Shown one piece after another: positions 10,688 through 26,485 of a DNA stretch of 64,000 bases. The notes under the pieces were generated by a model. It worked only from the letters and a program-made list of their open reading frames with translations, searched no databases and was not told the DNA's origin. The number at the start of each line of letters is the position of its first letter. The first letter of the stretch is position 1. This DNA is from Chakrabartia godavariana. GTDB lineage: Bacteria > Pseudomonadota > Alphaproteobacteria > Sphingomonadales > Sphingomonadaceae. The translations under genes and the position numbers were made by a program. Location: assembly GCA_005518185.1 (NCBI GenBank), contig RKSN01000001.1, forward strand, positions 744,501-808,500, read 5' to 3'.

Positions 10688-12045
10688 ATCCGCGCCCCCT
10701 GTCGGCGCAGTTCCTGCTGCACGGCGGGAATATCGACCTCGGCAAAGTCGCGGCCAGACTTCACCGCCAGCGCCGCGGCCACGCCCGCGCCCTGGCCGGC
10801 GACCGCGCAGCACATCATGTTGCGGACGGCGGCATGGCTCACCTTGTCGCCGCCGATGATGCGACCGGCCGTGATCAAATGCCTCACCCGCTTGGGCACC
10901 ATCGACCGATAGGGGAGGTGGAAGTAGCGCCCCGTCGTCGGCAGGATCAGATAGCCATAGCCGTCGATGAATTCGGGGAAGATGCCGATGCTGTCATCAA
11001 AGCGCCCCTCTTGCATCACGTCATCGGCCGTCATGTTATAGACGGCGTCAATCTTGCGCGTGTCGCGGATGCCCAGTGTCATGCCGAAATTGCGCAGCTT
11101 GGCATCCTCGCAACCGGGCATGAACGCCTGAAGTGCCGCAATGGCGTGCATCGCCTGCTTGCGCCCCGCCATCTCCCCATGCGTCAGTGCATCGGGGTCG
11201 GTGCCGTCGAGATAGAGGTGACACATGTTGAGATAGGTCAGGTCACCCTGATCGGAGACGGTGCCCCACGTACCGGCCATGGTTTTGACGCTGTCGGGGA
11301 TCAGGCCTGCCTCCAGCGCCTTCTGGAAGGGCTTGCGGAGGAAGGGGGAGAACATGTCATCCTCCTTGCCGCTGGTGATGACTTCCCATTCGCCGCCGAC
11401 GGCCCAGTCGCCATAGGTCTGCGGATCGGCCTTCACGGCGTCGATGAAGCGGCCCTTGTTCACGCCGCACATCGAGAACATCACCGAGACCGACATCATC
11501 TCGTCCACCGGATGCTTGTGCGTCGGCGCGCCTGCGCGGTGGGCGATATCGGCATCGCCCGTCGCGTCGATGATCCTCTTGGCCAAAATGGCCTCGCGCC
11601 CCGCCTTGCTCTCGACGATCACGCCGCGGATTGTGTCGCCCTCCATGATCGGCGCGACGCAGAGGCGATGCAGCATCGGGATGATGCCCGCTTCCTCGAC
11701 GAGCGTGTCGGCGACGAACTTGAACCCTTCGGCGTCAAGGCTGTGGCTGATCGACTGGGGTTCGGGCATGGCCGCGCCCATCGCCTTGGCGCGCTCCTCA
11801 AATTCGCGGCCAATGCCTTCGCTGTCGATGGTCGCAGGGTGGCGGTACCAGGCAAAGCCCTCCACGCCGACCTGCGTGATGTTGCCGCCAAAGCAGCCAT
11901 AGCGTTCGAGCAGGGTCGTCTCGACACCGGCCCGTGCCGAGGCGAGGGCTGCCGCGAGTCCGCCGGGGCCGGAGCCGACGACGAGCACATCCGTTTCGCG
12001 GATCACATCGATCTGGCGGGCGGGCTCCGTGATAGTGGCGGTCAT
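10681..12045 (-). CDS. FAD-dependent oxidoreductase of unknown substrate
   Basis: This 454-aa flavoprotein starts at the ATG that overlaps the betA stop by four bases (ATGA). The N-terminal dinucleotide-binding motif [21 protein letters not shown] is followed by [19 protein letters not shown], typical of the FAD-dependent oxidoreductase family that includes fumarate-reductase-like and tricarballylate-type enzymes. [17 protein letters not shown] is a second conserved nucleotide-binding element. A new reading frame running further upstream was ignored because it overlaps betA. Co-transcription with betA and the betI-betB fusion suggests a role in quaternary-amine or related catabolism, but the substrate is unknown. 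Confidence 0.8.
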
Positions 12046-13709
12046 CGCTGCGTCGTTTCCCAATCGGGCGCGACGTAATAAGGGGCGTTGGAGGGAGCGA
12101 GCATCGGTTTGCCGAGAATGTGGTCTGCGCCCTTTTCGCCGATCATGATCGTCGGCGCGTTGAGATTGCCCGTGGTGATCGACGGCATCACGCTGCTGTC
12201 GACGATGCGCAGGCCGTCCACCCCGATGACGCGCAACTCGGGATCGACAACGGCCATGGGATCGTCCGGGCGGCCCATCTTGCAGGTGCAGCTGGGGTGG
12301 AGCGCGCTTTCGACATGCTCGGCGATGAAGGCGTCGATCTGCTCGTCGGTGACGCAATCGGCGCCGGGCTGGATCTCGCGTCCGCGATAGGGCGCAAAGG
12401 CCGGCTGCTGGAAGATCTCGCGCGTCAGCCGCACGCAGGCCCGCATTTCCGCCCAGTCATCGGGATGGCTCATATAGTTGAACAGAATTTTGGGCTTGTC
12501 GTGCGGGTCGGCGCTGCGCAGCGTCACTGTCCCCCGGCTCTTGGAGCGCATCGGGCCGACATGGGCCTGAAAACCATGCTCGGTCGCCAGCGACGAGCCG
12601 TCATAGTTCACGGCCATCGGGAAGAAGTGATATTGGATGTCGGGATATTTGATCCCGGCGCGGCTGCGAATGAAACCGCAGCTCTCAAACTGGTTTGACG
12701 CGCCCGGCCCCGACCGCAGGAACAGCCACTGTGCGCCGATCAGCGCCTTGCCGAGCAGATTGGCCTTGCCATAGAGCGTAATCGGCTGGGTGCAGGCCAT
12801 CTGGAAGTAGAATTCGAGATGGTCCTGAAGGTTTGCGCCGACGCCCGGGCGGTCGGCCTTCACAGCGATCCCGTGCTGGCGCAGCTCTTCCGCTGGACCA
12901 ATGCCGGAGAGTTTGAGCAGCTGGACCGAGTTGATCGGCCCGCCCGCAAGGATGACCTCCCGCGTGGCTGACAGCTGGTGCGTCTGCCCGCCCCGTTCAT
13001 ATTCCAGTCCGACCGCCTTTTTGCCGTCGAACAGGATGCGGGTTGCCAAGGCGTGATCAATCACCGTCAGATTTGGACGCTTGCGCGCCTCATAGAGATA
13101 GGCCTTGGCAGCCGAACAGCGTGTGCCATTGCGCACGGTCATGTCCATCCGGCCAAAGCCTTCCTGGGCATAGCCATTATAGTCCTCGGTGAGGCGATAC
13201 CCTGCCTGTTGCGCCGCATCGAGCCAGGCCTGATGCAGCGGATTGTTGAGCGGGCCGTAAGCTGTCGAAAGCGGACCATCACCGCCGCGATATTCATCGC
13301 CGCCTTCCGCTCGTCCTTCGGCGCGTTTGAAATAGGGCAGCACATCGGCATAGCCCCAGCCCGAGGCGCCGTCCTCATCCTTCCAGCGTTCGAAGTCGAG
13401 CGCATTGCCGCGCACATAGACGAGGCCGTTGATCGAGGAGGATCCGCCCAATCCCTTGCCGCGCGGACAGTTCAGGCGGCGGCCGTTGAGGTGGGGCTCA
13501 GGTTCGCTCTCATAGCCCCAGTTCCACCTTTTTGAATTCATGGGATAGGCGAGTGCGGCCGGCATCTGGATGAAGATCGACCGGTCGCTGCCGCCATATT
13601 CGAGCAGCACGACCTTGTACTGGCCATCGGCGCTCAGCCGGTCGGCCAGCACGCAGCCGGCGGACCCTGCGCCGACAATGATGAAATCTGCCTGCTCAAT
13701 AGGGGGCAT
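12042..13709 (-). CDS. betA: GMC oxidoreductase, choline dehydrogenase type
   Basis: This 555-aa flavoenzyme should oxidise choline (or a related alcohol) to the aldehyde. The N-terminal FAD motif is [18 protein letters not shown], followed by the GMC signature region [23 protein letters not shown]-terminally HPSCTCKMG, with the catalytic His, and [23 protein letters not shown] match BetA closely. ATG 13709 is preferred because GGAG lies seven bases ahead; it overlaps the upstream aldehyde dehydrogenase frame by about 14 bases. An ATG at 13730 is possible but has no ribosome-binding site. The alcohol substrate is inferred from family and from the neighbouring BetI-BetB. Confidence 0.87.
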
Positions 13710-15693
13710 CGATGGGCTCCATTGCGACATAGACGCTTTTCAGCTGGGTATAATGCTCAATCGCCGCCCGCCCGTTTTCACGGCCGAGCCCGGACTGCTT
13801 GTTGCCGCCAAAAGGCATTTCGATGGGCGTGATGTTGTAGGTGTTGATCCAGCAGGTGCCCGCCTCCAGCGCCGCAATGACGCGGTGTGCGCGGGTCAGG
13901 TTGTTGGTGAAGATGCCGGCAGCCAGGCCGAAACTTGTGTTGTTGGCGCGCGCGACAACCTCCGCCTCGTCCTCAAAGTCGAGCACGGCCATCACCGGCC
14001 CGAAAATCTCTTCGCGCACGATGGCCATGTCATCGGTGCAGTGGGTGAAGATGGTGGGTTCGACAAAGCAGCCTTTGGCAAGATCGCCGGTCACGACGCG
14101 GCGCCCACCGGTCAGGAGCGTCGCGCCCTGCTGCTGTCCCAGCGCGATATAGCCCAGGACCTTTTCCATATGCGCGGGGGAGATCAGCGCGCCCATCTGT
14201 GTCGCAGGATCGAGCGGGTCGCCAATCACCATCGCCTCGGTGCGCGCCTTCAGCTTGGCAAGGAACGCGTCGCGGATGGATGTGTGGACGAAGACCCGCG
14301 TGCCATTGGTGCAGACTTCGCCTGCGGAATAGAAGTTTGCGAGGAGGGCGCCCGACACCGCCTCATCCAGATCGGCATCCTCGAACACGATCAGCGCGGA
14401 TTTTCCGCCCAGTTCAAAGGTGACATATTTGAGCGTGCCCGCCGCATCGACCATCACCTTCTTGCCGGTCCCGACCTCGCCCGTCAGCGACACCTTGGCG
14501 ATATCGGGGTGACGGCTGAGCATCCGCCCGGTCTCGGCCTTGCCCTGTACGACCTGAAACAGCCCGTCGGGCAGGCCCGCATCGCGATAGGCCTTTTCCA
14601 GTTCAATGGCGGTCAACGGTGTGAGTTCAGCGGGCTTGAAGATCATCGCATTGCCGCAGGCGAGGGCAGGGGCTGATTTCCAGCAGGCGATCTGGATGGG
14701 ATAGTTCCACGCGCCAATCCCCGCAACGACGCCCAGCGGTTCGCGCCGGGAATAGCCAAAGGCGCCGGTTCCCAGATCATGATGCTCCCCGGCAATCGTG
14801 CGGGCGAGCCCGGCATAATAGTCAATGCAGTCCGCGCCTGAGAGGACATCGACAGCGATGGTTTCCTGAATAGGCTTGCCGGTATCCAGCGCCTCGAGCC
14901 GCGCGAGCACCTCATTGCGCTCCACCAGAAGCGCCGCCGCCCGGTGAAGGATGCGGCCGCGTTCCACGCCGGGCGTCTTTGCCCATAGTTTCTGAGCGGC
15001 AGCAGCGCGCGCGACGGCCTTGTCGACCTCTGCCTGACCGTCGATGCGGATCGTCGCGAGAACGTCGCCCGTGGCCGGGTTGATCGTGTCAAACTGCGTC
15101 TCCGCCGGCGCGGCGGGCGCACGATCCAGATGGCGGGCAATGAAATCAAAGATCAGGTCACGTGCGATGCCGTTCTGGAGCGCCGAGCCGCCGTTCATGG
15201 CTGCGCGCAGCCAGACGCCGTCGATCATCGCCGCAATCGTCTCCGCCATCGACCCGACGTCGCGCGCATCGACCAGCTTGCGCAGATCGAATTTCAGGTT
15301 GGACAGCATCCGCTGCTGATGCGCGCGCTGCACCCGCGCCAGTTGCGGCACGTGGAGCGCCTCGCCCCAGAAGGACAGCCAGATGCGCGCAGTGTCCTCG
15401 GCATAACTGTTGTCCCCGAGATGCGCGTCCACCAATGCCTCGATGCGCGCGCGCGGACCAGAGGCCTGACGCAGCCGTGCGAGCACAGTGCCGTTCAGTT
15501 CCCGCGCAACCGACCGGAAGATCGCCTCAAGCAGGGCTTCCTTGCTCCCAAAATAATGCACGATCAGCGCTGCCGACACTTCGGCGCGGTCAGCAACCTT
15601 ATTGAACGTGAATTCAACGATGCCGTGATCGGCCAATACAGAGGTGGCGGCGTCAATGATGGCCTGACGGCGGGCTGCAGATAAAGTAGACAT
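13696..15693 (-). CDS. BetI-BetB fusion: TetR-type repressor joined to betaine aldehyde dehydrogenase
   Basis: One 665-aa open frame joins two normally separate proteins. Residues 1 to about 190 are a complete BetI-like TetR repressor: [35 protein letters not shown], then the BetI-specific [31 protein letters not shown] and [14 protein letters not shown]. After a short Ala/Pro linker, residues about 200-665 are Bet[23 protein letters not shown] (Asn330), ELGGKS (Glu427), [12 protein letters not shown] (catalytic Cys461) and [15 protein letters not shown]. All catalytic residues are intact, but the usual first 15-20 residues of BetB are replaced by the linker. A TTG-free ATG start at 15693 sits 17 bp from a perfect palindrome. 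The protein may oxidise betaine aldehyde and repress its own operon; bifunctionality is inferred. Confidence 0.88.
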
Positions 15694-15710
15694 GCCTGCG
15701 GCATATCGCG

Positions 15711-15730
15711 AATTGAACAATTGTTCAATT
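15711..15730. promoter_or_regulatory. Perfect 20-bp palindrome, candidate BetI operator
   Basis: AATTGAACAATTGTTCAATT is a perfect inverted repeat ending 17 bp before the start codon of the betI-betB fusion. TetR-family BetI repressors bind dyads containing TTGAAC/GTTCAA-type half sites upstream of bet genes, so this is the likely autoregulatory operator. It also lies in the region shared with the divergent TonB receptor, though about 400 bp from that gene. Confidence 0.7.
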
Positions 15731-16135
15731 CGGGCGGCGCCGGTGCGAGGCTGTCCGGCATCGGCCAGATAACGGCTGAACATCTCCAGGTGAGGGGGCG
15801 GTGTCCCGGATCATTGCAGGCAAGGGCACAGGCGCAACGACACGCTCAGCACATGCATGACGACGGGATAAGTGTTTCTAATAAGCAAAATTAGAAAAAA
15901 GATCATCTATCACAAAGCGAGGATCGTCGGGGTTTCCGGATTTTTGCTGGAAAAATGCGACCTTACCGAAGTCTCCCCGGCAACTTCGACGCAACCGGAA
16001 GGCCGTTTGATGCAGGCGCCGTCAGCTTGCACGGACACCCAATATGTTTAATCATCCGAGATCAACGAGATAAAAGTGTCGATTGCCGCGGACGACAAAA
16101 ACACCGCGTGATCTGCCAAATAAGGGGACCATCAA
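15731..16135. promoter_or_regulatory. Divergent intergenic region, bet fusion / TonB receptor
   Basis: About 400 bp without a convincing gene separate the divergent betI-betB fusion and TonB receptor. It includes an AT-rich stretch at 15870-15920 with several A-runs, suitable for promoters, and a long leader to the TonB receptor. I could not assign exact -35/-10 boxes. The receptor start is preceded by an AAGGGG-like site (about 16119-16125). Confidence 0.35.
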
Positions 16136-18577
16136 ATGCGCATTTCCAACCATGTTGCTCAACTCGGACTGTTGTTGCGATCCGGAACGGCTCTGACAGC
16201 TGCTCTGGCAGCGGCGCATGTCTCTGCGGCAGAGGTCGCTCCCGCGCCTGCGGCCGACGAAGGCGACCGCACGGAAATCGTGGTGACCGCGCAAAAGCGT
16301 GAGCAGAAGTTGCAGGATGTCGGCATTGCGATCTCGGTGCTGAGCAAGGCCGACCTGGACAATCGCAACATCTCCAATGCGACGGACGTCGTGTCGGCGA
16401 TCCCCAACCTGAAGTATAACGCCTATTCGTCATCGCAGGTCGTCTTCAACATGCGCGGCGTCTCGCAGAATGATTATGGCGACCAGCAGGAACCGCCCGT
16501 TGCCGTCTATCAGGATGATTCCTATTCAAGCTCCATCACCACGGCGAGCTTCCCCATTTTCGATCTGGCGCGCGTGGAAGCGCTGCGCGGGCCGCAGGGG
16601 ACATTGTTCGGTCGCAACGCCACCGGCGGCGCTGTCCAGTTCATCTCAAGCCAGCCGACCGACGTTCTGGATGGCTATGTCAGGCTGACCTATGGCCGCT
16701 ACAACCAGACCCAGGTTGAAGGCGCAGTGTCCGGGCCGCTGAGCGACACGCTCACGGCGCGTATTTCGGGCATCTTTGACCGTGACGACGGCTACATCAA
16801 GAACATCACGCCGGGTGAGAAGGACCGCGGGGCCAACAACCATTGGGCGCTGCGTGGCATCCTTGCCTATGAGCCCAGCTCCGACTTCAAAGCCAAGCTG
16901 ACAGTGCGCTACTCGCAAGCCGACAAGGAGCGTCAGGCCGGGGTCTACAACTATGCGCCGGCCTGCCCCAATGCGCAGTTTCAGGGCGAATTTCTGGCCC
17001 CGACGGCCACATGCGCTTACTGGGGCGTGACCGGAACAGCCGGCAATGGCTATTTCAACCCGGACATCGCCGCATCGCAGGGCGGCAGTCCCTGGAAGAC
17101 CGCAGGCACGGGCAATGCCTATGTCGATCGCAAACTGTTCGGCAGCACGTTGCGCATTGACGCAGAGGTTGGCGGGCTCGAGCTGACCTCGATTACCGAT
17201 TATCAGCATGTCGACAAATTCTACATCGAGAGCGGCAATGGCCCGCCTGAAATCCCTTATGTCGAAAACGTCACGCCGCCCCCCACGGCGCCGTGCCCGG
17301 CACCGAATACCGCGCTGACCTGCTATGCATCCGGGACGGTGTTCTTCCAGGACGCCAAGGTCGATCAGTATTCGCAGGAACTCCGCCTGTCCAAGACGTC
17401 CGACCGCAATTTCCTGACGGTTGGCGCGTTCGGCATGGTCATCGACGGGAAGTATAAGGCCAAATACGCGACGCCGTTTGATGGCTATGATCCCAGCGTC
17501 AGCTTCACCCAGAAGACGGAATCCTACGCCGTCTTTGCGCAGAATGAATTCAAGGTCAGCGATCAGGTCAAGCTGATCGGTGGTTTGCGCTATTGGCATG
17601 ATCACAAGGTCGGCGATTACAGCGCCGTTCACACGCTGCCGCTTTACGCGCTGTCGCTGCACTTCGGGCCAAGTGGCGTGTCCTATAATGACCTGACGGG
17701 CACCAACAGCCCGGCGGCCTGGACCTATGGCGCTGGCACGTCCGGGGTCACGATCACGCCGGATGCAGCCTCGCCGAACTTCAGCGGTGTCACCGCGCGC
17801 GCGGAAATTGATTACAAGCCGAGCGACCGGGTTCTGCTTTATGCCAGCTACAATCGCGGCTCCAAATCGGGCGGGTTCACCTTCTCGACCGGGACGCCAT
17901 TCCCGTCCCAGCTGGTCGATACGCTGAACAATCTGGCCTACCGCCCAGAGACCCTGAATGACTATGAAATCGGCCTGAAGTCCACTCTGGCGCCAGGAAC
18001 GACGCTCAACGTGGCGGCCTTCTATTATGACTACCAGAATTACCAGGCGTTCGTGCAGGTTGGCTTCACGCAGGTCGTCCGCAATTTGCCGGCGACCGTG
18101 AAGGGCATCGAAGCGGACTTCACGACGCGCCCGATGGCCGGTCTCACGCTCCAGCTGTCCGGCGCCTATCAGGACAGCAAGGTCAAGGACGTGCTCCTGC
18201 CTGATGGCGTCACGGTCGTAACGCGGGATCTGCCGCAGGCGCCCAAGCTTTCGGGCAGTGCCATGGCGCGGTATGAGTTCGCGCTGGCAGGGGGCAAGGC
18301 CTCTGTGCAGGCGGATACGATCTTCCAGGGCAAGATGTGTTTCACCGTCATGTGCGCGCCGGTCGAGCGCGAAGGCGGCTATGCCGTGGCCAATGGTCGC
18401 ATCGGCTTCACCACGGCAAATGAGAAGGTCGACGTCGCCCTGTTCGTGAACAACCTCTTCAACCGCGCCTATCGCGTCTATGCGTTTGACGGGTCGCTCT
18501 ACTGGGGCGACACGCTGGGCGTTTATGCCAAGCCGCGCACCTGGGGGCTGACCGTCCGCTACAACTTCGGCAAATGA
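16136..18577 (+). CDS. TonB-dependent outer-membrane receptor
   Basis: This 813-aa receptor starts with an Ala-rich signal region and has the TonB box EIVVTAQKREQ, typical of sphingomonad receptors. The plug contains DVVSAIPNLKYNAYSSSQVVFNMRGVSQND and VEALRGPQGTLFGRNATGGAVQF. The barrel ends in LTVRYNFGK, with a Phe two residues before the usual terminal position. It diverges from the bet operon and precedes an amino-acid-type permease, so uptake of a choline/betaine-like or amino-compound ligand is plausible, on position only. Confidence 0.9.
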   Translation: MRISNHVAQLGLLLRSGTALTAALAAAHVSAAEVAPAPAADEGDRTEIVVTAQKREQKLQDVGIAISVLSKADLDNRNISNATDVVSAIPNLKYNAYSSSQVVFNMRGVSQNDYGDQQEPPVAVYQDDSYSSSITTASFPIFDLARVEALRGPQGTLFGRNATGGAVQFISSQPTDVLDGYVRLTYGRYNQTQVEGAVSGPLSDTLTARISGIFDRDDGYIKNITPGEKDRGANNHWALRGILAYEPSSDFKAKLTVRYSQADKERQAGVYNYAPACPNAQFQGEFLAPTATCAYWGVTGTAGNGYFNPDIAASQGGSPWKTAGTGNAYVDRKLFGSTLRIDAEVGGLELTSITDYQHVDKFYIESGNGPPEIPYVENVTPPPTAPCPAPNTALTCYASGTVFFQDAKVDQYSQELRLSKTSDRNFLTVGAFGMVIDGKYKAKYATPFDGYDPSVSFTQKTESYAVFAQNEFKVSDQVKLIGGLRYWHDHKVGDYSAVHTLPLYALSLHFGPSGVSYNDLTGTNSPAAWTYGAGTSGVTITPDAASPNFSGVTARAEIDYKPSDRVLLYASYNRGSKSGGFTFSTGTPFPSQLVDTLNNLAYRPETLNDYEIGLKSTLAPGTTLNVAAFYYDYQNYQAFVQVGFTQVVRNLPATVKGIEADFTTRPMAGLTLQLSGAYQDSKVKDVLLPDGVTVVTRDLPQAPKLSGSAMARYEFALAGGKASVQADTIFQGKMCFTVMCAPVEREGGYAVANGRIGFTTANEKVDVALFVNNLFNRAYRVYAFDGSLYWGDTLGVYAKPRTWGLTVRYNFGK

Positions 18578-18655: not shown

Positions 18656-20275
18656 GTGGCGGGCACGGCAGCGGCATCAGACGCAGGGCAGGCGGGCGGC
18701 CAGAGGCAGCTGCAGCGCGAGCTTGACTGGAAGGATGCGTTCTGGGCGTCCAGCGGGGTCCCGGCGGGCGTTCTGCTGACCATGGGCGGCATCGCCACGA
18801 TGATCGGGCAGCCAAGCTGGGTCATCTGGATCGCCTCCATCCTGATGGGGTTTGTGCAATCCTTCGTCTATGCAGAGATTGCCGGCCTATATCCCAACAA
18901 ATCCGGCGGGGCGTCCGTCTATGGCGCTGCCGGCTGGTTGCCATATGGCAAATTCATCGCGCCCATCTCGGTGTGGTGCAACTGGCTTGCCTGGTCGCCT
19001 GTGCTGGCGCTGGGGACCAGCCTCGGCGCGGGCTATGTCATGGCAAGCCTGTTTCCGGCAGATGCCGCGATCCGGCAATGGCAGCTTGACCTCCTTCCGC
19101 TCGACTTTGTCCGGGAAGGGCTTCACCTTCGCATCAATCTCGTTTCGATCATCGCGACCGGCTTTCTGCTGCTGACCTTTGCGCTGCAGCACCATGGCGC
19201 CGCGCGTGCGGCACATTTTCAGAGAATTCTGGGCATTGCCTGCATGCTGCCGCTCCTCCTCGTCGGTATTATCCCGCTCATCACCGGAGATCTGCCGCGC
19301 GAAAATCTGTTCCCGCTTCTGCCCATCGTCCGCGATGCGGCGGGGCATATCGGGTTTGGGACATGGGATGCGGCGGGGCTGACGCTTCTGGCTGGTGCGA
19401 TGTTTGGGGCTGGGTGGTCCACCTACGGGTTTGAAACGGCTGTCTGTTACACCCGCGAATTCCGCGATCCGGCAAAGGACACCGCCCGCGCCATCTTTGC
19501 CGCGGGCCTGTTGTGCATGGCCATTTTCACCCTCGTGCCGCTCGTTTTCCAGGCATCGCTCGGGCTGGAGGGCATGCTTGATCCGTCAATCTACGATGGA
19601 TCGGGTGTGGCCAATGCGCTCGCCCGGATTTTGGGCGGCGGTGCGGTCATCGGCAATATGCTCATTGTGATGCTCATCCTGGCGCTGCTGCTGATCGTCA
19701 TGACGTCGATGATGGGTTCATCGCGCACCCTGTACCAGGCCTCGGTCGACGGATGGTTTCCGCGCTACCTGTCGCGCGTCAACAAGCATGGTGCGCCCAC
19801 AGCGGCAATGTGGACCGATCTGGTTTTCAACATCGTGCTGCTGCTCGCCTCAGACTATTTTGCGGTGCTGATGATCTCCAACGTCTGCTATTTCGTGTTC
19901 AATTTCCTCAACCTTCAGTCCGGATGGATCCACCGGATTGACCGGAGCGACTGGACGCGACCCTATCGCTGCCCGACCTGGCTGCTGACGACCGGCGCGG
20001 TCTTCGGCTTTGTGAACATGGTCTGGATGGGGGCAGGCGCGAATGTGTGGGGTGAAGGCACGCTGCGCAACGGATTGCTCGCGGTTCTGCTGATCATTCC
20101 GGTCTTCGCGTTCCGCCACTATGTTCAGGACAAAGGCCAGTTCCCGGCCTCTGATGGCAAGCAGGACGGCCCCGTCGCCCGACGGATCGTCCAGCCCAAA
20201 GCCGGGGTGCTGCCATATCTCGCTTTGCTCGCTGCCGCTGCGACCGTCGGGATCACAGCTTATCTGGCCAAGTAG
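18656..20275 (+). CDS. APC-superfamily amino acid/amine permease
   Basis: This 539-aa inner-membrane transporter starts at GTG with AGGGGAGAG ahead. About 12 hydrophobic segments are visible. The first helix region WASSGVPAGVLLTMGGIATMIG and the later MTSMMGSSRTLYQASVDGWFPRYLSRVNKHGAPTAAMW match amino acid-polyamine-organocation permeases. It follows the TonB receptor by 78 bp, separated by a hairpin, and may act as its inner-membrane partner. The substrate is not predictable. Confidence 0.85.
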   Translation: MAGTAAASDAGQAGGQRQLQRELDWKDAFWASSGVPAGVLLTMGGIATMIGQPSWVIWIASILMGFVQSFVYAEIAGLYPNKSGGASVYGAAGWLPYGKFIAPISVWCNWLAWSPVLALGTSLGAGYVMASLFPADAAIRQWQLDLLPLDFVREGLHLRINLVSIIATGFLLLTFALQHHGAARAAHFQRILGIACMLPLLLVGIIPLITGDLPRENLFPLLPIVRDAAGHIGFGTWDAAGLTLLAGAMFGAGWSTYGFETAVCYTREFRDPAKDTARAIFAAGLLCMAIFTLVPLVFQASLGLEGMLDPSIYDGSGVANALARILGGGAVIGNMLIVMLILALLLIVMTSMMGSSRTLYQASVDGWFPRYLSRVNKHGAPTAAMWTDLVFNIVLLLASDYFAVLMISNVCYFVFNFLNLQSGWIHRIDRSDWTRPYRCPTWLLTTGAVFGFVNMVWMGAGANVWGEGTLRNGLLAVLLIIPVFAFRHYVQDKGQFPASDGKQDGPVARRIVQPKAGVLPYLALLAAAATVGITAYLAK

Positions 20276-21710: not shown

Positions 21711-21872
21711 TCCGCCGAACATATGCTCCATCTCGTTCGCTTGTGACTACTAAAGTAGCTGTAAAGCTAGGTAAAATATACATTGTCAAGGATACGGCGT
21801 TCGAGATTGTTCGCTTGCGTTTCACCGAAGAGCACCTATTTTCGGGGAACGGTTTTGGGAACGAAAGAGACA

Positions 21873-23147
21873 ATGCCAAAGAAACTAAGCCATGCGCTGA
21901 CCCAGTTGCAGGTGAAGAACGCGAAACCCGGTCGGCATGCTGACGGAGGCGGACTGCACCTATTGGTCAAGGAAAGCGGTGCGCGGTCATGGGTGTTTCG
22001 GTTCATGCTGAACGGTCGGTCAAGGGACCTCGGGCTTTCACGCTGCCCAGAAGCAGCCGCACTCTTGCGGGCAACTGGAGGGGGAGAACTTTCGCTTGCG
22101 CAGGCACGTGACATCGCGGCCATCTATCGGCTGAAGGTGAAGGCCGGGATTGATCCCCTTGAAGAGCGCGAACAGGATGCAGCGAACAGGGCATCGGCAG
22201 TAACTGCCGCGAAGGCCAAGGCGATCACATTCAAAGCTGCCGCCGAAGCGTACATCTCCGCTAACGAGGGAAGCTGGCGCAACGACAAGCATCGTCAACA
22301 GTGGCGCAACACGCTCGTATCGTATGTTTATCCGGTCATCGGAGAACTACCCGTTGCCAGCGTTACTACTTCCCATGTGTTGGACATCATCGAGCCGATT
22401 TGGGCCACGAAAGCTGAAACGGCGAGCCGTATTCGGGGCAGGATCGAGACTGTTCTGGATGCCGCGAAGGCCCGTGGGTACCGCGAAGGGGAAAATCCCG
22501 CTCGGTGGCGCGGTCATATTGCCCAGATACTTCCGGCCCGGTCACGCCTTGCGCGCGGTCACCATAAGGCAATGCCATACAATGACGTAGCGGCCTTCCT
22601 CTCAGAACTGCGCGCGAAACAGGCGGTGGCAGCCTTGGCGCTGGAGTTCACGATCCTGACCGCTGCTCGCACCAGTGAGGTGACAGATATGACGTGGGAT
22701 GAAGTAGACATGGCCAAAGCCCTGTGGACTATCCCCGCGAAGCGCATGAAGGCTGGCCGCGAACATCGCGTGCCACTCTCAAAGCGGGCTGTAGAGATAC
22801 TGGAGAAGGTTAAGGATTTGGGCCAGGGCTCGGTGTTTCCGGGCAATAGGGGGAAATTGTCCTCTATGGCTATGGCAATGCTGCTTCGCCGCATGGGGCG
22901 CGATGAGACAGTTCACGGCTTCAGGTCCGCGTTCCGGGATTGGGCTGCGGAATGCACCGGCTATCCACGTGAGGTCTGCGAAATGGCGCTTGCGCACGTT
23001 ATCGGAAACAAGGCCGAGGCAGCATATCGGCGCGGAGATCTGTTCGAAAAGCGTCGGCTGTTGATGGATGAGTGGACTGCATTCTGCCTGCCACCTGCGG
23101 GAGCAAGCCCGAATGTCTCATCCATTCGCCTCGGACTTGCAGACTGA
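21873..23147 (+). CDS. int: P4-type tyrosine integrase
   Basis: This 424-aa site-specific recombinase should insert and excise the island at tRNA-Ser. Residues about 1-95 are the N-terminal DUF4102-like domain (GGGLHLLVKESGARSWVFRFMLNGRSRDLGLS). The core-binding SAM-like domain follows (FKAAAEAYISANEGSWRN). The catalytic domain shows Arg in TAARTSEVTDMTWDEVD, the HxxR box VHGFRSAFRDW, His in LAHVIGNKAEAAYRRGD and the Tyr nucleophile in AAYRR. The ATG at 21873 gives the normal family length; an upstream frame extension was rejected. Its stop overlaps the next gene by one base. Confidence 0.93.
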   Translation: MPKKLSHALTQLQVKNAKPGRHADGGGLHLLVKESGARSWVFRFMLNGRSRDLGLSRCPEAAALLRATGGGELSLAQARDIAAIYRLKVKAGIDPLEEREQDAANRASAVTAAKAKAITFKAAAEAYISANEGSWRNDKHRQQWRNTLVSYVYPVIGELPVASVTTSHVLDIIEPIWATKAETASRIRGRIETVLDAAKARGYREGENPARWRGHIAQILPARSRLARGHHKAMPYNDVAAFLSELRAKQAVAALALEFTILTAARTSEVTDMTWDEVDMAKALWTIPAKRMKAGREHRVPLSKRAVEILEKVKDLGQGSVFPGNRGKLSSMAMAMLLRRMGRDETVHGFRSAFRDWAAECTGYPREVCEMALAHVIGNKAEAAYRRGDLFEKRRLLMDEWTAFCLPPAGASPNVSSIRLGLAD

Positions 23148-24055: not shown

Positions 24056-24593
24056 GATGCACCCGGCCCTCAAATTTCTAACTCTTCTCGACCCAGCGCC
24101 ATCTGCCACGTTTAACATCGAAACCTTCACCGACCTGCCGAAAGGCGTAGTGAAGCCGAAGCCTGACCCCCTGTGCACTCGCTATGCGAACTTGTCGCTG
24201 GCCGGAGTGGCCGAGATCATCGCCAACCTAGAGATGCTGAACGAAGCTGGTGCAGCGGTCTACGTCGCGGTCAACCAATGCAAAGGTCATCGCAGTAAGG
24301 ACAACGTCACGCGTGTGCGTGGCGTCCATGCCGATTTTGACGGGGTGGCAGCAGAAGTCCTTTCCGCAATCCGCTTGCGCCTGAAGCCCACTATCGAGGT
24401 CCAGTCTAGCGGCCCGGGGAACTGTCACTTCTACTGGCTCCTCGATCAAGGTGAAGAAATGTCCTCGGAATGGGCTGAGAGCATCAATCGCGGCCTTGTC
24501 GAATTGGGCGCTGACCGCGCTGCGATCGATGTGTCTCGCCTCCTTCGCCTCCCCGGCTTCCGCCACATGAAGCACCGTGAAGGGAGGGCATGA
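24048..24593 (+). CDS. RepB-like primase domain protein
   Basis: This 181-aa protein (GTG 24048; ATG 24057 also possible) matches the RepB/archaeo-eukaryotic primase-like domain found in plasmid and island primase-helicases. The stretch VRGVHADFDGVAAEVL carries the Asp pair expected for metal binding, QSSGPGNCHFYWLL and DRAAIDVSRLLRLPGFRHMKH match the family's core. Usually this domain continues into an SF3 helicase in one polypeptide. Here it ends in an ATGA overlap with the helicase gene. Confidence 0.78.
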   Translation: MTKMHPALKFLTLLDPAPSATFNIETFTDLPKGVVKPKPDPLCTRYANLSLAGVAEIIANLEMLNEAGAAVYVAVNQCKGHRSKDNVTRVRGVHADFDGVAAEVLSAIRLRLKPTIEVQSSGPGNCHFYWLLDQGEEMSSEWAESINRGLVELGADRAAIDVSRLLRLPGFRHMKHREGRA

Positions 24594-26485
24594 GAGTGGG
24601 CATCCATATTTTACCGGAACAGCTCTGCCCAACGGTCATGGTCGTGGATAGCGGCCCGCGCTATAGCGCCAGCGCAATTGACGCGGCATTCCCGAAAGCA
24701 TCGCCAAAACCCAAACCCATGCCTGAGACGTCGAAAGGCACGGATGTGGCGGCGCCTCTGGTGCCGGAGCATCGCGCTATCGTAGAGGCGGCAGCGGCGC
24801 ATTTGGCGCAGGCCAATCCGAAGCTGTGGTCGGGCGCATGGGATGCCGTCCTGACTTTCGGAAAGAAGCAGGTATTTTCGAGCCAGTCTGAAGCTGACAT
24901 GTCGCTGGCGTCCCGCATCGCGCGCCATTTGGCCGACCAAGGTGTCGCTGCCGAACTGCTCTCTCCACTGACCGAAGCCGTATTTGATCGCTCCGGCCTA
25001 GCCAAACGGGACAAGTGGCAGACCCGCGACGACTACAGGCACCGCACTATCACCCGCGCATGTGCATCTGTGACCGCCGCAGCCAGTATCCCCTACGCGA
25101 GTACGTTGGCAACGACATCTGGCCCACACGTTGACTGGTCCCTTCATGGGGATGTTCGCAACGCGCGCTTCTTCGCTGATAAATGGAACGGCCAATTGGC
25201 GTACGTTCATGAACGCAAGAGGTGGATGCACTGGACCTCAAGCCGCTGGGCGATGTGCGTTGCCGGAGAAGAAATTGAGCGCGCCAAAGAGACGTGCCAA
25301 GCCCTCTATAAGGCGGCGGGTCAAGAACTGGCGCTAGAGCCCGAAAAGGCACAGAAGTTGGCTCGTGAAGCTGCCCAGGCGCATTTGTCGCCGCGCATCA
25401 AAGCGATGGTGGGCCTTGCCCAGTCGGACCCCATGCTCGCCGTATCTTCCACCCGCCTTGATGCGGACAACTTACTTCTCGGCGTCGGGAATGGTGTGGT
25501 CGATCTTCACAAGGCATCGCTCCGGAGCAACGAGCCGGGGCTGTTTATCACGCGCTACTGCAATGCCGACTTTGACCCAGACGCAGGCTGCCCTCGCTGG
25601 TTGCAGTTTCTCGAAGAAGTCTTCCAAGGCGATCAGGCAACTATCACGTCTGTTCAACGCTTGCTGGGTTATACCCTGACGGGGTTGAGCACCGAGGAGT
25701 TCCTCGTCTTCTGCGTTGGGTTCGGGGCCAACGGAAAGTCGATCTTCGGGAACGTCGTCGCGCACATCGTGGGTGACTACGCCAAGACAGCGCCATCTAC
25801 GCTGCTGGCTGCCCGGAGGGGGGATGACCATTCACCACGCGGCGATGTGGCTATGCTTGATGGGGTTCGCATGGTGTCCGTCAACGAACTTCCCGCAGGG
25901 ATGCGGCTCGACGAACAGGTCGTCAAACAGCTGGCAGGCCGGGAACCTATTTCCGCTCGCCAGCTATACGGGGAGTTTTTCACGTACCAACCCCGGTTTA
26001 GCGTCTGGGTCCGCACAAACCACAAGCCAATCATCAAGGGCGATGATGACGGTATCTGGCGTCGGATCGTGGTGGTGCCGTTCCGCCGTAAGTTCGAACC
26101 TCATGAACGCGACCCCGATCTTGAGGCCAAGCTGCTTGCTGAGTGTGACGGCATCCTGCGTTGGATGGTTGAAGGTGCCCAAAAATATCTGAAGCAGGGT
26201 ATTTATTTCAGCCCGGCCATGCAGGCAGAGCGCCAGCAATTCCGCAAAGACAGCGATATACTGGGCGAATTCCTTGAAGAACGCACCGTCGGTCAGCCCG
26301 GAGGCAAGGTAGAGCAGACCTACCTATACTCGAAATGGGCCGCATGGTGCGAAGGGAACGGGACCCATCCGGGAGCCAAGAAGACCTTTACTCAGCGCCT
26401 TGCAGAACGCGGATTTCCGGCCGGAAAGAGCGACGGGAAGCGCTTTTACGTCGGACTCCAAGTCAGCCCGAGCAACCTTCTTTAA
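24590..26485 (+). CDS. P4/D5-type SF3 DNA helicase
   Basis: This 631-aa protein is the replicative helicase of the island. The D5 N-terminal region (about 335-370, QFLEEVFQGDQATITSVQRLLGYTLTG) precedes the SF3 ATPase: Walker A GFGANGKSIFGN (about 378-389), Walker B-like MLDGVRMVSVNELP, and motif C SVWVRTNHKPII with the sensor Asn, then GIWRRIVVVPF. The first 35 residues read as the continuation of RepB-like primases, so the primase-helicase appears split over two overlapping genes. Confidence 0.88.
   Translation: MRVGIHILPEQLCPTVMVVDSGPRYSASAIDAAFPKASPKPKPMPETSKGTDVAAPLVPEHRAIVEAAAAHLAQANPKLWSGAWDAVLTFGKKQVFSSQSEADMSLASRIARHLADQGVAAELLSPLTEAVFDRSGLAKRDKWQTRDDYRHRTITRACASVTAAASIPYASTLATTSGPHVDWSLHGDVRNARFFADKWNGQLAYVHERKRWMHWTSSRWAMCVAGEEIERAKETCQALYKAAGQELALEPEKAQKLAREAAQAHLSPRIKAMVGLAQSDPMLAVSSTRLDADNLLLGVGNGVVDLHKASLRSNEPGLFITRYCNADFDPDAGCPRWLQFLEEVFQGDQATITSVQRLLGYTLTGLSTEEFLVFCVGFGANGKSIFGNVVAHIVGDYAKTAPSTLLAARRGDDHSPRGDVAMLDGVRMVSVNELPAGMRLDEQVVKQLAGREPISARQLYGEFFTYQPRFSVWVRTNHKPIIKGDDDGIWRRIVVVPFRRKFEPHERDPDLEAKLLAECDGILRWMVEGAQKYLKQGIYFSPAMQAERQQFRKDSDILGEFLEERTVGQPGGKVEQTYLYSKWAAWCEGNGTHPGAKKTFTQRLAERGFPAGKSDGKRFYVGLQVSPSNLL

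Follow-up and report, generated by a model that had tools for sequence, protein, structure and literature searches.

PutA is the textbook case of a repressor fused to an enzyme, and, to our knowledge, few metabolic repressors are joined to an enzyme that their own operon encodes. The trifunctional PutA is described as repressing, autogenously, the regulon to which it belongs (PMC5293562). Choline is the signal to which the repressor BetI responds in E. coli, S. meliloti and Acinetobacter, and in Ruegeria it likewise acts as the effector (PMC12442346). In Ruegeria pomeroyi, BetI1 binds the palindrome ATTGACG-CGTCAAT, with a box spacing of N4, and in the main text of the same article the word “fused” is absent and both uses of “fusion” refer to cloning (PMC12442346). 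No paper on a BetI-BetB fusion was found among the open-licence PMC papers listed, as judged by titles and the starts of abstracts, and the word BetI is absent from an article on ALDH-ADH fusions (PMC12454647).

The window examined here is a stretch of 64,000 nucleotides from Chakrabartia godavariana, and it contains a gene that joins a BetI-type TetR repressor to a BetB aldehyde dehydrogenase. This combined switch and enzyme looks like a real one, not a reading error. The TetR half resembles BetI in that it exceeds the cut-off of the BetI model NF001978, lies ahead of betB and betA, retains conserved aromatic residues, and is preceded by a BetI-like palindrome. It differs in that it is not a separate protein, its C-terminus continuing into BetB, and in that fused loci favor ATTGA-N8-TCAAT while separate systems favor N4. 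As an alphaproteobacterial BetI with choline as its probable effector, it is comparable to BetI1 and BetI2 of R. pomeroyi (PMC12442346), which, however, are encoded by separate genes.

The BetB half resembles bacterial betaine aldehyde dehydrogenase (ALDH9 type) in that it exceeds the NF009725 cut-off, has invariant catalytic residues, and has the BetB structure 6wsa as the best of the fold matches listed, but in the window’s kin the N-terminal hairpin is gone and a linker and TetR domain stand in its place. With PutA the fused protein shares an N-terminal DNA-binding domain on an aldehyde-oxidizing enzyme (PMC5293562) and an operator-like site at its own operon. However, it uses a TetR domain, compared to the RHH DNA-binding domain, proline dehydrogenase and P5C dehydrogenase of PutA, and its DNA-binding part probably contains a pocket for a ligand. 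In addition, it lacks a flavin domain, has no known membrane switch, and carries one enzyme activity. The PutA analogy holds for the layout; control of DNA binding by catalysis, on which the comparison centers, may exist but is unsupported.

The fused betI-betB gene

The minus-strand frame at 13696–15693 (start ATG 15693–15691, stop TGA 13698–13696) encodes a chain of 665 amino acids, in which a short Ala/Pro linker connects a TetR repressor of the BetI type to BetB. The plus-strand reading of this interval is ruled out by internal stops. An alternative frame of 695 amino acids starting at 15783 would enclose the operator described below within the gene, and 15693 is therefore the likely start. 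On the minus strand, Pfam identifies a TetR_N helix-turn-helix (PF00440, 1.7e-13; residues 12–58, 15520–15660), with helices at 30–37 and 41–48 in the structural model, followed by the BetI-type ligand and dimer domain TetR_C_6 (PF13977, 6.3e-23; residues 80–189, 15127–15456). The BetB aldehyde dehydrogenase domain, Aldedh (PF00171, 4.6e-173; residues 198–654, 13732–15102), carries Asn330, Lys353, Glu427 and Cys461. The Ala/Pro-rich linker, placed at about residues 190–199 (15097–15126, minus strand) from the model and the sequence, has no internal Met. The Pfam scan gives TetR and Aldedh alone, with no flavin domain, RHH, PRODH or P5CDH. The initial annotation had read a complete BetI-type repressor and a complete BetB in this one frame, and the three domain matches agree with that reading.

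By itself, the TetR half scores 173.4 bits against the NCBIfam BetI model NF001978 (cut-off 118), and it falls below the cut-off of the stricter BetI model TIGR03384 (184.7 compared to 201.3). The BetB half scores 769.9 bits against NF009725 (cut-off 593) and lies just under the cut-off of TIGR01804 (663.2 compared to 668.6). Its NF009725 match begins at profile position 20; the usual BetB N-terminal hairpin is absent from the window protein and the Ala/Pro-rich linker is in its place, as had been annotated. Asn330, Glu427 and Cys461, which had been noted as intact, are present and do not vary in an alignment of 52 fused proteins (the window’s and 51 chosen from fused loci).

An AlphaFold2 model built from these 52 proteins has a mean pLDDT of 81.2 and a pTM of 0.65. 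It features the nine helices expected for TetR, a break at 190–199 and an ALDH fold thereafter, with the TetR helix ending at 189 and the first ALDH strand at 200; pLDDT is below 50 at 192–195, 302–316, 461–464 (which includes the catalytic Cys) and 613–651. When the whole chain was compared to the PDB with Foldseek, all 50 matches listed were aldehyde dehydrogenases, with bacterial BetB on top, and the best of those listed was B. pseudomallei BetB 6wsa (57% identity).

Both halves of the protein are under purifying selection. In all 20 pairs compared, dN/dS is below 0.3 in every computable segment, with values of 0.009–0.149 for the helix-turn-helix, 0.046–0.293 for the rest of TetR, and 0.022–0.152 for ALDH; four helix-turn-helix values could not be computed because dS was saturated. 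Moreover, W105, W109, D158 and W161 are invariant in the 67 fused BetI-type domains compared, and W105, W109, W161, G159, H46 and F48 are invariant across these 67 and 25 separate BetI domains. The tryptophans may form a choline pocket in the TetR half.

The gene that follows, betA, encodes a GMC-type choline dehydrogenase (12042–13730, minus strand; PF00732/PF05199), and with its listed start it shares 35 bases with the end of the fusion. In all 82 loci compared, eight of which are cut by contig ends, a betA relative follows on the strand of the fused gene at a distance of no more than about 270 bases.

The candidate operator and its spacing

A BetI-like candidate operator, ATTGAACAATTGTTCAAT, is located at 15712–15729 (unstranded), 19–36 bases before the ATG and inside a perfect 22-bp palindrome at 15710–15731. 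The inverted-repeat score in the window is 12, and none of 30 shuffles of this region exceeds 8, although by our own count the general palindrome score tops all shuffles in only 6 of 93 fused rows, one of which is the window. A consensus promoter scan at the operator gave no sigma-70-like promoter.

The motif is ATTGAA-N6-TTCAAT. Its distribution was counted in the upstream regions of 86 distinct fused loci, which remain from 95 after seven identical loci and two with fewer than 150 upstream bases were dropped. Zero, one, two and three mismatches are found in 21, 35, 26 and 4 loci, so that 82 of the 86 have the motif at two mismatches or fewer. The corresponding frequencies in dinucleotide shuffles are 0.06, 0.06, 1.5 and 12.4%, figures that overstate the motif because it was derived from the same upstream regions. 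Among fused loci outside the motif-defining set, the half-sites occur at one mismatch in L185 and at none in L186, and L188 has no site at up to two mismatches. A perfect copy of the motif is unique to the window’s site in the 3.17-Mb genome, where nine further places have one mismatch. In close relatives the half-sites are kept, with at most a terminal A-to-G change or two changes, while the six center bases are variable.

The half-sites tend to lie farther apart in fused loci than in systems with a separate BetI. For ATTGA-Nk-TCAAT, perfect sites with k=8 are found in 33 of 86 fused loci and with k=4 in 4 of 86, compared to k=4 in 20 of 26 and k=8 in 12 of 26 separate systems, the latter also fitting k=8 because their boxes often contain both spacings. 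The nearest separate systems, L123 and L130, have a k=4 box. The sequences are related and not independent, and the difference is therefore an association confined to a single lineage. This spacing preference of fused loci lends itself to direct testing.

Four of the six known relatives whose BetB lacks a TetR half were checked for the operator (all but L189 and L190), and all four have no site at two mismatches or fewer in 500 bp upstream; since 108 of 800 random windows have such a site, its absence is the usual background outcome.

Distribution and ancestry

The fusion is not unique to the window’s genome. It is present in at least 95 loci, at least 88 of them distinct after dropping identical records (the window included in both), and its hosts are Sphingomonadales, Caulobacterales, Hyphomicrobiales, Acetobacteraceae and Gammaproteobacteria MAGs. 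A search of related genomes for the same architecture had been suggested as a check: the two genes are not separate in all close relatives, and many genomes carry the fusion. The best 80 loci of a scan of species-genome contigs are all fused at the window’s junction, though as the top matches of a longer list they are biased toward full-length copies. Among loci L001–L039, 12 of 39 are fused at this junction, one being the window itself, and L120, L121 and L149 are fused there too. At L052:3932-5650, one of the best 80 loci and on a MAG contig, the frame of the fused gene stops within the ALDH part, possibly through an assembly error.

Fixed samples at four taxonomic levels, which overlap and each count the window’s genome, give a less biased picture of how common the fusion is. 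Of 397 genomes in the family sample, 19 have BetB at 1e-145 and 378 have none; 16 of the 19 are fused and three lack TetR in the stretch around the gene. In the order sample (396 genomes), 20 have a match above 590 bits, comprising 12 fused genes, four TetR-less truncated genes and four unfused genes without TetR within 1.5 kb. Matches number 49 in the class sample (385 genomes) and 110 in the phylum sample (398 genomes), with fusion in 3 of 30 and 4 of 30 loci examined, respectively. This means that in the window’s family BetB, where present, is mostly fused, while across the phylum the fusion is a minority type. In the one annotated copy examined, on a complete Komagataeibacter plasmid, the fused gene is annotated as one betB of 676 amino acids, with the product name betaine-aldehyde dehydrogenase only. 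Such a name hides the regulator, and genomes may be read as lacking BetI.

Trees of the two halves were quick trees that carry long-branch warnings. For these, 28 of the 95 fused loci were removed by hand because they were broken or were identical or similar to others (for some, both copies went), and the unfused BetB loci L137, L138 and L158 were left out. In the TetR tree of 67 fused and 25 separate BetI domains, all fused domains lie on one side of a single branch (support 97, starred), adjoining the separate BetI of L123 and L130, which fits one old origin. In the BetB tree, 64 of 67 fused sequences fall in one clade (96, starred) whose sister is the separate pair L123, and this clade also includes six genes that are not fused, of which four are truncated and lack TetR. 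The fused L110, L020 and L022 are placed outside it. The BetB tree requires six changes between fused and unfused labels, at least five by starred branches, and a second origin, or replacement of BetB, may have occurred in L110, L020 and L022.

The standalone BetB genes L021, L023, L024, L025, L189 and L190, which have neither a TetR half nor the usual N-terminal hairpin, start where the fusion junction used to be or close to it. A start at this position suggests former fusions, and the TetR half may thus have been lost again in several relatives. At L171–L174, no TetR of the BetI kind was found within about 7 kb. Since this conserved TetR-ALDH fusion apparently arose once, and relatives exist in which the halves are separate, are fused or have lost TetR, it would provide a natural series on the joining of a switch to an enzyme.

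Linkers are 16 to 47 residues long over 88 fused loci. The shortest are found in the window and its nearest kin, in which about 16 residues, with no Met among them, separate NPA from the end of helix 9. By crude pattern, a hairpin-like BetB N-terminus is still present in 36 of 88 fused proteins and a Met within the linker in 27 of 88, with none in the other 61; both features are absent from the window and its nearest kin. Four of the 27 loci with a linker Met have a Shine-Dalgarno-like stretch. An internal start yielding a separate BetB was rejected for the window, where no Met occurs in the linker (ATG starts considered).

These data bear on a neutral explanation, in which adjacent, in-frame betI and betB genes lost the stop between them, the halves function as before, and the joining is without effect. 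By coordinates, betI and betB share one frame with a single intervening stop in 7 of 26 separate pairs (L123, L127, L135, L143, L150, L162 and L166), which makes stop loss a simple route to fusion. A fusion without consequence would also sit well with the hairpin-like starts, the linker Met residues and the apparent loss of the TetR half in several relatives. However, the fusion has been retained across several orders though its linker diverged, most linkers lack a Met, and the fused set has a different operator spacing preference. On balance, neutral read-through is a credible but not a favored account.

Proposed function and alternatives

We consider it probable that the protein is a single-chain autorepressor-enzyme that keeps its operon shut until choline appears. 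The TetR half would dimerize, occupy the palindrome just 5′ of its own start codon, and keep both the fused gene and betA from being transcribed. Choline entering the conserved aromatic pocket would release the TetR half from DNA, and the operon would then be made. BetA would convert choline to betaine aldehyde, which the BetB half would convert to glycine betaine. With one repressor subunit per enzyme subunit, self-repression would be strictly proportional to enzyme once choline is gone. The upstream operator indirectly supports the view that the fused protein is still a self-repressor. It had been proposed that the repressor is tied to the enzyme that consumes its own inducer, and this part does not follow, because the known inducer, choline, is the substrate of BetA, while BetB takes the next intermediate.

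Bacterial BetB-type enzymes are tetramers, and LacI tetramers bind two operators through DNA looping or cooperative binding. A BetB tetramer should therefore bring together two TetR dimers, and the closest folds among the matches listed for the fused chain are bacterial BetB structures. The fused protein could then be a bivalent, LacI-like repressor that holds two operators. A possible second operator with one mismatch lies 111 bp from the first, within the TetR coding part (15601–15618, unstranded). However, two sites at one mismatch or fewer are found in only 9 of 88 distinct fused loci. One of these nine, in L100, consists of two overlapping registers of one site. Five of them have the coding-region copy at the same place as the window, which makes this second site weak, and it may just reflect a conserved VEFTFN peptide. 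Looping through paired operators was rejected because the second site is not conserved across the 88 loci, and bivalent repression as a whole seems unlikely.

A closer parallel to PutA would be that the state of BetB (NAD, betaine aldehyde or acyl-enzyme) alters the DNA affinity of the TetR half, so that the enzyme reports pathway flux. The short, Met-free linker of the window’s nearest kin would suit such coupling, as would the distinct half-site spacing of fused loci. On the other hand, a single conserved contact between the domains is hard to reconcile with the variable linker length, the TetR half retains its own putative ligand-pocket residues, and the known BetI ligand is choline (PMC12442346), which is not a BetB substrate. 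We regard this coupling as quite improbable. The same low standing is given to a broader conjecture, in which two BetI dimers, kept at a fixed distance by the BetB tetramer, have reset operator spacing from 4 to 8, the enzyme’s load of betaine aldehyde or NAD tunes bet repression, and the fusion would represent a widespread, unrecognized TetR-enzyme class. Finally, a sequencing or assembly error that deleted a stop or shifted the frame, which the initial annotation wished to see excluded, is rejected as next to impossible, since the identical junction is open in at least 88 distinct loci and a separate complete plasmid, that of Komagataeibacter, annotates a single betB of 676 amino acids.

For the single-chain autorepressor-enzyme, other BetI-like regulators in the same genome are also relevant. 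Ten fused genomes were tested, and in all 10 the fused frame is the sole match to the BetI model over the cut-off; of four TetR-less genomes, three have no BetI match over the cut-off and G313 has one elsewhere. A second BetI-like TetR in the window’s genome (L192:1162-1836; G000:C3, about 226.4–227.1 kb) scores 112.4 bits, compared to the NF001978 cut-off of 118, and is divergent to a Rieske oxygenase that weakly resembles glycine betaine monooxygenase (147.8 bits, cut-off 670). Another BetI that would make the fused one redundant was therefore discounted, the only candidate being this weaker paralogue below the cut-off. It may serve as a helper to the fused repressor. Similar sub-cut-off BetI-like paralogues occur in several relatives.

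Divergent from the fused gene, a TonB-dependent receptor (16136–18577, plus strand) is a possible uptake partner, and it is followed by an amino-acid-permease-type transporter (18656–20275, plus strand; PF13520, 3e-69). The receptor is 68–83% identical in L051, L053, L054 and L175, and the permease is 77–85% identical in L051, L053 and L175 only, so that the arrangement of both recurs in a genome of the same genus (L175) and in two Novosphingobium loci (L051 and L053). Most fused loci lack either neighbor, with a receptor-like match in 13 of 82 and a permease in 3 of 82, and the Komagataeibacter plasmid with the fused gene also has a receptor nearby. After the permease come a phage-type integrase (21783–23147) and a D5-type primase/helicase (24590–26485), and an integrated element may begin directly past the bet region.
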